Part shown: piece by piece, positions 50,501 to 55,860 of the stretch
How positions within the stretch are numbered: the stretch's first letter is position 1
Layout of the letters: every line of letters starts with the position of its first letter
Source: Halarchaeum rubridurum
GTDB taxonomy: Archaea > Halobacteriota > Halobacteria > Halobacteriales > Halobacteriaceae
DNA length: 64,000 nucleotides
Direction of reading: 5' to 3'
Assembly (NCBI RefSeq): GCF_014647115.1
Contig: NZ_BMOO01000001.1
Span: forward strand, 434,001-498,000
Program-made: the position numbers and the translations under genes
Notes under the pieces: generated by a model
The model's input: the letters and a program-made list of their open reading frames with translations, nothing else
Told to the model about the DNA's origin: nothing
Database searches by the model: none

Positions 50501-51127
50501 ATGGGAGTCCTCGAAGACAAAGGGCGGGCCCGGCTCTTCTACCGGTACCTCTCGACGGTGTACGACCGCATCAACCCGTTCATCTGGAACGAGGAGATGC
50601 GTACGGAGGCCCTCGAGATGCTCGCGCTCGACGCCGACGACCGCGTGCTCGACGTCGGCTGTGGCACCGGCTTCGGAACCGAGGGGCTCCTCCAGCACAC
50701 GGAGCACGTCTACGGACTCGACCAGAGCGAGGGGCAACTGGAGAAGGCGTGGGCGAAGTTCGGCAAGACCGACCGCGTCGACTTCACGTTCGGCGACGCC
50801 GAGCGCCTCCCGTTCGCCGACGACAGCTTCGATGCGGTCTGGTCGTCGGGCTCCATCGAGTACTGGCCGAACCCCGTGGCGGCGCTCCGGGAGTTCCGCC
50901 GCGTCGTGAAACCCGGCGGGAAGGTGCTCGTCGTCGGCCCGAACTACCCGCGCTCGACCGTCTTCCAGAAGCTCGCGGACGCGATCATGCTCTTCTACGA
51001 CGAGGCCGAAGCCGACCGGATGTTCCGCGACGCCGGCTTCGAGGCCATCGAGCATCGGACGATGGGGCCGTCCTACAAGCCCGACGTCGCGATTACGACG
51101 CTCGCTCGCGTCCCGGACGACGGCTGA
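50501..51127 (+). CDS. SAM-dependent methyltransferase (quinone methyltransferase-like)
   Basis: This 208-residue class I methyltransferase has the SAM-binding motif VLDVGCGTGFGTEGLL, the acidic residue in YGLDQSE, FGDAERLPFADDSFDAVWS and the post-motif FRRVVKPGGKVLVVGP. The YRYLSTVYDRINPFIWNEEMR start resembles MPBQ/MSBQ-type quinone methyltransferases, so menaquinone modification is the best guess. It is divergent from the ATP synthase operon, which fits a respiratory role. Its 3' end overlaps the pilin-like gene. Confidence 0.83.
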   Translation: MGVLEDKGRARLFYRYLSTVYDRINPFIWNEEMRTEALEMLALDADDRVLDVGCGTGFGTEGLLQHTEHVYGLDQSEGQLEKAWAKFGKTDRVDFTFGDAERLPFADDSFDAVWSSGSIEYWPNPVAALREFRRVVKPGGKVLVVGPNYPRSTVFQKLADAIMLFYDEAEADRMFRDAGFEAIEHRTMGPSYKPDVAITTLARVPDDG

Positions 51128-53468: not shown

Positions 53469-53497
53469 ATTTTATTCCATAACCTATGAGATAAATT
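53469..53497 (+). promoter_or_regulatory. A/T-rich promoter of the small DUF7503-type gene
   Basis: The stretch 53455-53505 is far richer in A+T than its surroundings. GATAAATT (53490-53497) is 29 to 36 bases before ATG 53526, and a second T-rich box lies at 53469-53478. Confidence 0.5.
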
Positions 53498-53525: not shown

Positions 53526-53660
53526 ATGTCTGAGAAGGACATCACGACGTACCTGGCGGACAACCCGCGAAAGATCGGCGCGCTGTTCACCCTCGTGCTC
53601 CTGCTCTCGCAGGCCGGCAACTCGGCGGCGATGTGGGGGACGGACGTCTTCGGCCCGTAG
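53526..53660 (+). CDS. 44-residue DUF7503-type membrane protein
   Basis: This 44-residue protein begins MSEKDITTYLADNPRKIG, followed by one hydrophobic helix (FTLVLLLSQAGNSAAMWG) and the end TDVFGP. Similar peptides with NPR, then a helix and SQAGN occur in haloarchaea (DUF7503 by memory). The function is unknown. It is convergent with the CHAT-protease gene, 100 bases apart, and has a strong A/T-rich promoter. Confidence 0.7.
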   Translation: MSEKDITTYLADNPRKIGALFTLVLLLSQAGNSAAMWGTDVFGP

Positions 53661-53760: not shown

Positions 53761-55860
53761 TTAGCGAAGCTCCGAGACGCTCAGTTCGTCACTCCATCGG
53801 AGAGTGTCGTCTACGAGGATCGGCGAGCGACCGGAGGAGAGGACGTCGTCGAACCGGTCGTGCGAGACCTCGAAGAAGTGATCGGAAGGGCTCGACAGGT
53901 AGCGCTCGGAGGAGTCGGAGAGAAACGACGTGGTGAAGATGCCCGGTCCGACGTTGCGCGTGATGTAGTTGCGAATCGAGACGGTGATCGTGTCCGAGTC
54001 GACGTCGTCGGTATCGACGACAGCCACCTTCGGGGACCCGAACGGGTACTGACAGAGCGTGACGCCGCCGCCACCGACGATGGTGTAGTGCGAGTCGGCA
54101 GCGACGCCCTGCGTCGCGACGTTGAGCGCGCCGTGGAGGTCGAAACCGGCGTCGAGGAGGCGGGCGACGGAACGGCCGACGGTCGTCGCCACGTGGTTGT
54201 AGACGTCCGCGAGGGTGACGACGCCGCCGAGGGCGCCGGCCTCGACGAGCGCCATCCCCTGCGCGTACGAGCGACAGCCGTTGAGGATGAACGCGTCCGC
54301 GCCGACGGTGTCGAGCCCGCGGGCGTCGAGGACGCCGTCGCGGCAGCGGATGCCGTCCTCCGTGATGTGCCCGATGAAGTGGAGGAAATCGGTATCCGAC
54401 TCGAGGACGGCGCGCGTCTCGTCGACCGAGAGGTCGAAGCGCGTCCCGATGTCGAAGTCGATCATGTCCCGGAAACCGTAGAGGTCGGCGGCCTCCTCGC
54501 GCATCTCCGGGTCGTTACAGACGACGGTGACGTCGATGACGGCGTCCTCCTCGACGCGCCGGTCGAGTTGACGACGGTACGACTCGACGGTGGGCTTCGA
54601 GGCCCCGCGCGGGTAGTCGTCGCCGACCCACGCGTGGCCGACGGTCTCGACGTCGACCGGCGAGACGACGCGTGCACCCGCGTCGTCGGTATCGGTGTCG
54701 GTCGCGTGAGCGTCGTCGGCCCGCGTGGAGCGGACGAACGCGTCGACGTCCGCCGCGCGGAAGAACTCGGAGACCGCCGCCGGGTCGGGTTCCGCGGCCG
54801 TGGCGTCGGCGTCCGGGGTCGGCGAGCGGACGAACGGGAGGTCGTTGACGAGGTAGGGGAGGAGTTCGGCGCGCGCTATCGACGGCTCGACGTCGACCGT
54901 GAGGTGCCAAGCGAAGACGTCCTCGGTGACGTCGAGGGGAACGTCGAGGTACGCGGCGGTACGGCCCGCGAGCGGGCGCTCGTAGAGCGCGGCGAGGTCG
55001 AGCTCGACCCGGTCGAGGACGGTGTCGCGTTCCGCGAGGTCGATGGGGTAGATACCCTCGGTTCGGACGACGCAGTCGAGCACGAAGCAGTGGCGCAGGA
55101 GGGCGTTCGCGGAGCGCGCGACGTCGGCGTACGGGAAGTCGAACGCCCGATCACCCGCGACGAGCCGCGGCGTCGGACCCGGAGCGACCGTCGCGCCGAG
55201 GTAGTAGGCGAGCGACGAGACGGCGTAGACGGCGTCGTAGCGCGGCGGGACCTCGATTCGGACGCCGGTGTCGGGCGGTTCGAGGTCGTCGGGGGCCGCG
55301 AAGCGCTCGCCGCGCTCGATGGTGGGCGGATGTCCCCGCATCGTCGGGAACGAGCGTTCGGGGCTCGTCGTCTTCAGCGCGGAACCGAAGGTGGAGACGG
55401 CGCGCATCAGGGAGCGGGGCGTGTCCTCTATCGTCACCGTACCGGCGGGGTGCTCGTGGAGCGACCGGACGCCGATGCGGACGCGCGTGGGCGCGCCGAA
55501 GTCGACGACCGTCTCGTCACCGCGGGCGTCGACGGTGACCGGGGCGTCGACGACGCGGACGTAGAGCTTGAGGCGAACGGCGGAGACGTCGAGCTCGTAC
55601 GTCCCGGCGTCCGCCTCGGCGCGCCCACCGGGCGTCACGTCGAAGGCGACCTCGTCGCCGCGGTACGCGAAAATCTCGGGGAGGGTCGGGAAGACGAGTT
55701 CGCTCGTGGTGACGTCGACGGCGCGGGTCAGCGGGACGCGGAACGGTTCGGTCGAGGCGGGTTCGACGTCGGCGGCGTCGAGACCGACCTCGTAGGTCAC
55801 GGACTCGATCCGGTCGTCGATGCGGAGTCCGCCCTCGACCGCCTCGAAGCCGACGTTCAC
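53761..55860 (-). CDS. CHAT-domain (caspase-like) protease
   Basis: This 699-residue protein has a C-terminal CHAT peptidase domain. The catalytic His is probably His498 (FLHFIGH) and the catalytic Cys is Cys529 (AFILNGCRSYAQG), followed by LVEAGALGGVVTLADVYN and AGFDLHGALNVATQ. These are the two conserved strands and loops of caspase-HetF (clan CD) enzymes. The N-terminal about 400 residues show no recognised TPR or sensor domain: they are beta-rich (EVPPRYDAVYAV) with several Cys and Arg residues. It stands alone; activation and substrates are unknown. Confidence 0.82.
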   Translation of the reverse strand: MNVGFEAVEGGLRIDDRIESVTYEVGLDAADVEPASTEPFRVPLTRAVDVTTSELVFPTLPEIFAYRGDEVAFDVTPGGRAEADAGTYELDVSAVRLKLYVRVVDAPVTVDARGDETVVDFGAPTRVRIGVRSLHEHPAGTVTIEDTPRSLMRAVSTFGSALKTTSPERSFPTMRGHPPTIERGERFAAPDDLEPPDTGVRIEVPPRYDAVYAVSSLAYYLGATVAPGPTPRLVAGDRAFDFPYADVARSANALLRHCFVLDCVVRTEGIYPIDLAERDTVLDRVELDLAALYERPLAGRTAAYLDVPLDVTEDVFAWHLTVDVEPSIARAELLPYLVNDLPFVRSPTPDADATAAEPDPAAVSEFFRAADVDAFVRSTRADDAHATDTDTDDAGARVVSPVDVETVGHAWVGDDYPRGASKPTVESYRRQLDRRVEEDAVIDVTVVCNDPEMREEAADLYGFRDMIDFDIGTRFDLSVDETRAVLESDTDFLHFIGHITEDGIRCRDGVLDARGLDTVGADAFILNGCRSYAQGMALVEAGALGGVVTLADVYNHVATTVGRSVARLLDAGFDLHGALNVATQGVAADSHYTIVGGGGVTLCQYPFGSPKVAVVDTDDVDSDTITVSIRNYITRNVGPGIFTTSFLSDSSERYLSSPSDHFFEVSHDRFDDVLSSGRSPILVDDTLRWSDELSVSELR

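Follow-up and report, generated by a model that had tools for sequence, protein, structure and literature searches.

A predicted CHAT/separase-type protease family of haloarchaea and its convergently encoded peptide partner DUF7503

What is a caspase-like protease doing in a salt-loving archaeon, and does it work alone? The question arose from a gene for a 699-amino-acid (aa) protein in Halarchaeum rubridurum, lying within a stretch of 64,000 nucleotides (nt) (contig NZ_BMOO01000001.1, positions 434,001 to 498,000), which is called the window below. An initial annotation had read the protein as a stand-alone CHAT protease with the catalytic pair His498 and Cys529. The open reading frame (ORF) occupies window positions 53761–55860 on the minus strand, starts with GTG and was judged coding by a codon model trained on the window genes; orthologues with 86%, 78% and 64% identity were found in three other genomes of the genus. 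Pfam and PADLOC gave no match to the protein at E values up to 1, the single NCBIfam match was below its cut-off (E 0.064) and was taken for chance, and searching the solved structures by sequence, first with the protein alone and also with a 32-row profile, returned nothing at E up to 1.

The fold was assigned by structure prediction. Based on a 32-row alignment of dyad-bearing family members, AlphaFold gave a full-length model with a predicted local distance difference test score (pLDDT) of 86.1 and a predicted template modelling score (pTM) of 0.87. The best solved structure found with Foldseek was the SAVED-CHAT filament 8tl0 (E 5.2e-7), followed by separase and the gingipains, and matches obtained with VIA mostly spanned residues 316–604. 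The highest VIA Z score, 19.0, was obtained for gingipain R (4ief, 1cvr; root-mean-square deviation (rmsd) 3.3, 240 residues aligned, model residues 317–642). Separase (5fc2, 5fby, 5fc3), also a His/Cys dyad enzyme, scored 16.6 and 16.3 (rmsd 4.7 and 3.6, 242 and 224 residues aligned, respectively), SAVED-CHAT 15.7 (2.7, 166 aligned over residues 435–603), Csx29/TPR-CHAT of Craspase, with the same type of dyad, 14.2 (8d9f_A; 3.0, 205 aligned), and caspase-7 10.8 (3.5, 164 aligned). In the model and alignments, the CHAT/caspase-fold catalytic domain comprises residues 401–604 (54049–54660, minus strand, as for all features of this gene). It is preceded by a low-confidence linker, residues 346–400 (54661–54825; pLDDT under 50 at residues 351–395), and followed by a beta-rich C-terminal extension, residues 605–699 plus the stop codon (53761–54048).

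The catalytic pair, with His498 encoded at 54367–54369 and Cys529 at 54274–54276, was invariant in the 32-sequence alignment of dyad-bearing members. Both residues were kept in 86 of 95 family proteins, a count that leaves out proteins shorter than 600 or longer than 900 aa and those of loci L044, L045, L046, L056 and L103; the pair is the one named by the initial annotation. When hhalign was used to align the family with seven unambiguous CHAT proteins of the phylum (probability 95.2, E 2.6e-8), H498 and C529 fell on their His and Cys. The Pfam CHAT model PF12770 did not match the window protein at E up to 1 and matched 2 of the 32 family members at E up to 0.01 (best 4.6e-5); the copies of two relatives passed its cut-off (34.1 and 28.1 bits). 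We read this weak recognition as a limit of detection rather than a trait of the structure. Because of the structural matches and the CHAT profile comparison, we consider the CHAT/separase family call right, though the protein alone falls below database thresholds: the protein is a predicted His/Cys protease of the CHAT/separase type (clan CD) with a caspase-haemoglobinase fold. A metazoan-type caspase was rejected, as there was no Pfam match.

The protease gene does not stand alone. Convergent to it, with 100 nt between the genes, lies an ORF of 44 aa at 53526–53660 on the plus strand, which matched Pfam DUF7503 (PF24335) with 68.7 bits against a cut-off of 27. The initial annotation had listed this peptide as the only companion of the protease; the convergent ORF is real, and "only" understates a conserved partner. 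A possible archaeal TATA element, TTTATT, was seen by eye about 50 nt before its start codon (53471–53476, plus strand), and a sigma-70 promoter scan found nothing, as expected for an archaeon. The pairing was scored in 59 relatives, 48 of which carry the protease family, against the first 150 family matches listed. Among the matches listed, 60 of 65 DUF7503 matches were on the opposite strand, 2–278 nt downstream of a family gene's 3' end, and every DUF7503-bearing relative (46 of 46 genomes) had a convergent pair. In further genomes of the class, 70 of 129 listed DUF7503 matches were testable, the other 59 being on contigs without a listed family match. Convergent neighbours made up 66 of these 70 (65 within 90 nt, one at 1013 nt), and of the 4 unlinked matches the ones in G080 and G106 could go with unlisted family copies. 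At 78 named loci, DUF7503 was found within 400 nt in 67, and at many loci the stop codons nearly abut (gaps of about −1 to 10 nt).

The same partnership was seen at the level of whole genomes. Among 194 Halobacteria genomes, 179 carry the protease family, with one to ten matches each, and 164 carry DUF7503, all 164 together with the protease, which bears out the co-conservation that the initial annotation had proposed checking. All 15 genomes lacking the family also lacked DUF7503 (Fisher p 1.7e-14, not corrected for relatedness). In a draw of 196 genomes from the phylum, DUF7503 occurred in 27, all in the window's own order, and the protease family in 32; four of these lie outside that order, in one other family, with one match each and with DUF7503 in none of the four. 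By eye, three of the four outside homologues keep the dyad and one has lost it; they (L237–L240) are in the vicinity of putative DnaG primase and acetyltransferase genes. Hence, DUF7503 is a near-obligate convergent partner of the protease family, and the family is a real, class-wide branch of CHAT/separase-type proteases, unnamed in the domain libraries searched (Pfam, NCBIfam, PADLOC). Five unlinked DUF7503 frames (L227–L231) were all found in genome G009, away from any protease gene among the matches listed. They sit on a dispersed repeat of about 290–370 nt, matching parts of which are mostly 88–97% alike, a small mobile-looking element carrying the peptide.

A second partner, DUF7504 (PF24336), is frequent elsewhere. 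At 30 of the 78 named loci its gene immediately precedes the protease gene on the same strand, with a 4-nt overlap in 7 of the 30, and both partners are present at 24 of the 78. In the relatives, 14 of 58 DUF7503-linked copies have DUF7504 next to them, against 3 of 59 other copies with the dyad and none of 23 without it. None was found beside the window protease gene; the window genome has five DUF7504 matches, and the two of them among the matches listed are on another contig. The full row of DUF7504, CHAT and DUF7503 is seen at two Haloferax loci (L109, L115). As H. volcanii has both DUF7503 and DUF7504, which served as search controls, and the full row stands in two other Haloferax, H. volcanii very probably carries the protease too. 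Searches of open-licence PubMed Central (PMC) full text found no paper naming DUF7503 or DUF7504, and none joining the CHAT domain or CHAT proteases with haloarchaea, Halobacteria or Haloferax.

The N-terminal half, in which the initial annotation had recognised no sensor or TPR domain, gave no domain match here either. The structure prediction that the annotation had suggested, run on this half alone with 74 sequences, produced a confident model (pLDDT 95.6, pTM 0.91) with two domains. Residues 1–139 (55444–55860) form a beta domain with a weak supersandwich (galactose mutarotase-like) resemblance: its best VIA match, to a protein related to galactose mutarotase, scored Z 9.0 (rmsd 3.3, 129 aligned; the next match scored 7.9), and this likeness of the model may be only a common arrangement. 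A Foldseek search with the model of this half found nothing at E up to 1e-3. Residues 140–345 (54826–55443) form an alpha/beta domain, of which 316–345 aligns with the catalytic regions of gingipain and separase. Neither domain has the make-up of TPR repeats, and there was no Pfam TPR match. The N-terminal half carries a near-invariant ERSFPTLRGHPP motif. No stretch is more conserved across the family than residues 160–179 (55324–55383) of the alpha/beta domain, SALKTTSPERSFPTMRGHPP, with the family consensus SALKTTSPERSFPTLRGHPP. Within it, R169 and R175 were present in 95 of 95 members and are thus more constant than the catalytic pair, and this conservation suggests a charged ligand. The two-domain module is specific to the protease family, and we propose a regulatory role for it.

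In 87 distinct DUF7503 peptides, columns P12, [RK]13 and F19 were invariant and G16 was present in 84; the hydrophobic segment follows these columns, and NP[RK] or HP[RK] stands just before it. A signal peptidase context of the A/V-x-A type was found in 86 of the 87, followed by a tail that is 9 residues long in 73 and 8 residues long in 11. The last two residues were GP in 84 of 87, and the tail interior was variable. Judged from these features, DUF7503 could be a single-pass membrane peptide or the precursor of a secreted nonapeptide. The NP[RK] or HP[RK] motif is presumably cytosolic, as is the protease, for which no signal peptide was evident by eye.

Our tentative preference, at a little under even odds, is that the protease responds to a signal and acts on the membrane peptide encoded beside it, DUF7503 serving as substrate or effector. 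The protease and the convergent peptide gene would be two halves of one conserved module. On sensing a signal, the N-terminal module would free the protease, which would then cut the membrane-inserted peptide, with NP[RK] or HP[RK] as the obvious site, and the cut would change the behaviour of the peptide in the membrane. Points counted in favour are the predicted fold and dyad, the linkage and co-presence of DUF7503, the invariant P and [RK] columns, and retention of the dyad in DUF7503-linked copies. For the last point, 147 family ORFs were scored, leaving out L005, L008 and L021–L023 as duplicates and not counting rows that end before profile position 540 or have less than 350 nt downstream. 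Dyad and DUF7503 were both present in 58, the dyad only in 63 (one gene, L014 at 588 and L163 at 0, being counted twice), neither in 25, and DUF7503 without the dyad in 1. The dyad was therefore kept in 58 of 59 DUF7503-linked copies, and 25 of 26 dyad-less copies had no linked DUF7503.

Several points weigh against this reading. When relatedness is taken into account, dyad and DUF7503 are only weakly associated: in a tree made from the N-terminal part (140 rows, quick method), the minimum was 3 changes for the dyad and 7 for the linkage. With about three dyad changes and only 2–3 independent comparisons, we regard the association as suggestive only. In that tree, one clade holds 35 dyad-bearing copies without DUF7503, another 19 dyad-less copies, and a third 19 often tandem copies (18 with the dyad) without DUF7503; DUF7503-linked copies are scattered over the other lineages. 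Since DUF7503 does not adjoin 63 of the dyad-bearing copies, the protease must have other targets in those lineages. The known CHAT substrates, gasdermin and Csx30, are larger proteins than DUF7503, and the R/K of DUF7503 may reflect merely the positive-inside rule. Cleavage at NP[RK] leaves the 9-residue, GP-ending tail unexplained, and the contact between protease and peptide is putative.

The paralogues differ in residues and setting. One clade (L025–L028, L036, L039, L040 and others) keeps the N-terminal ERSWPTLRGHPP module and has lost both His and Cys, so that its members are pseudoproteases; those of the window genome and of a second genome of the genus (L025, L026) lie by putative nucleoside diphosphate kinase and GTP cyclohydrolase III genes. 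A separate dyad-bearing clade without DUF7503 (FVHYIGHC...FFLNACGSYYEG) includes L024, at C1:48787-50685 of the window genome, and adjoins the regulator TbsP (NCBIfam NF047393, 376 bits) in a cluster of 5 loci. Double or triple tandem dyad-bearing copies without DUF7503 occur at the TRAM locus in Halobacterium (L034, L043 and L103, the last being named so), and one tandem copy in L043/L103 is split into two frames. In the neighbour survey, in which the family gene of L036, L072 and L075 was not called, a protein of about 225 aa without a Pfam match (VGWIAHPDE...) recurred near the protease at ten loci (L058, L061, L074, L076, L080, L087, L090, L093, L112, L114), directly upstream in 9 of the 10, often with a 136-aa protein without a Pfam match downstream.

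How does the locus compare with known systems? In CHAT-gasdermin pairs, a protease and a membrane-acting partner are encoded side by side, as stated in a published account (PMC12881547). The present locus likewise has a protease beside a membrane-type partner gene, but the partner is 44 aa long, convergent and not gasdermin-sized. No gasdermin gene was found among the nearest window neighbours (Pfam, PADLOC) or among 10 recurrent-neighbour proteins of other loci (Pfam), these being general scans with no gasdermin-specific profile. Unlike in Craspase, no TPR was found, the partner is a 44-aa membrane-type peptide, and no Cas7-11, Csx30 or RpoE partner was seen among the window neighbours. SAVED-CHAT differs in that no SAVED domain was matched and no CRISPR gene was present among the Pfam- and PADLOC-scanned neighbours. 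Compared with separase, the protease is short (about 700 aa), has a different N-terminal half and stands in a setting without a cohesin pathway. Gingipains are secreted enzymes; the protease here has no evident signal peptide and a different gene context. A bolder extension, that the two genes form a class-wide, minimal cell-fate or signalling switch in which a stress-sensing protease turns DUF7503 into a membrane-active or exported peptide, appears to us unlikely. If true, archaea would have their own equivalent of protease-gated gasdermin systems, with an effector smaller than any other that we know of, or, alternatively, we would be dealing with the first haloarchaeal peptide pheromone known to us.

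The tail that cleavage at NP[RK] leaves aside is central to another explanation, in which DUF7503 is a secreted precursor made of a Sec signal peptide and a pheromone-like, GP-ending nonapeptide, with the CHAT protein as intracellular processing or response partner. The signal peptidase context, the prevailing 9-residue length, the GP end and the variable interior all agree with it, and DUF7503 looks like the signal peptides of haloarchaea, for example the one on the S-layer protein. However, the signal part (invariant P, [RK] and F, near-invariant G) is far more conserved than the tail, which is unusual for a leader, and the recurrent neighbours included no conspicuous importer or receptor; we judge this explanation improbable. 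We give the same low standing to a DUF7503 that is never cut and holds the protease at the membrane as an anchor or inhibitor, securin-like or as an adaptor. The single hydrophobic segment and the strong linkage to the protease family would suit such a role, but the genes are convergent and not co-transcribed, so stoichiometric control would be missing, and the binding is purely putative.

Somewhat less probable still is that the Asp-directed caspase-like activity seen in Haloferax and other haloarchaea comes from this protease, which would then do housekeeping work under stress with DUF7503 as an accessory. In the paper describing it, that activity is abundant, specific and LEVD-cleaving, its gene unassigned (PMC3615174). 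A class-wide family, two Haloferax loci and both partner families in H. volcanii would fit such a source, which the initial annotation had also raised. According to the same paper, however, the activity is widespread among diverse Archaea (PMC3615174), and in the phylum draw the protease family was found beyond the window's class in only one further family. The activity is described there as cleaving Asp substrates and not an Arg substrate (PMC3615174), whereas among the relatives of the protease separase cuts after Arg and the Csx30 site is cut after Leu, as given in another paper (PMC9729208). The protease thus remains a possible source, its Asp specificity putative. Finally, mutual transcript silencing through overlapping 3' ends, with the peptide doing a separate job, would fit the near-abutting stop codons at many loci and is very unlikely, as 100 nt separate the genes in the window and linkage is kept across gaps of up to 278 nt.

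The surroundings of the gene are of a housekeeping kind. Around it are V-ATPase genes, a methyltransferase, DUF7345/DUF7343, TRAM, SDR and RPA-like genes, the V-ATPase and RPA-like names coming from reading of the sequences and the others from domain scans. As the SDR and TRAM neighbours recur at loci L044, L045 and L046, the locus looks like an old, vertically kept core chromosomal locus. A mobile or viral origin was rejected: the viral contig scan gave 23 pattern matches, 0 of them confirmed, phage records gave 0, and relatives occurred in 25 of 72,556 plasmid records, every one of them haloarchaeal and predicted to be non-mobilizable. The defence or gasdermin setting put forward in the initial annotation likewise found no footing, since PADLOC did not match the protein and its 10 neighbours gave one match (mad2). 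This match is the UbiE-like methyltransferase at 50501–51127, most likely a generic methyltransferase similarity.

A caspase-like protease gene is thus carried by most salt-loving archaea and passed over by protein databases. The family is a concrete candidate for the caspase-like activity reported in haloarchaea without an assigned gene (PMC3615174). With relatives in the genetically tractable Haloferax, what caspase-like enzymes do in archaea can now be put to a direct test.
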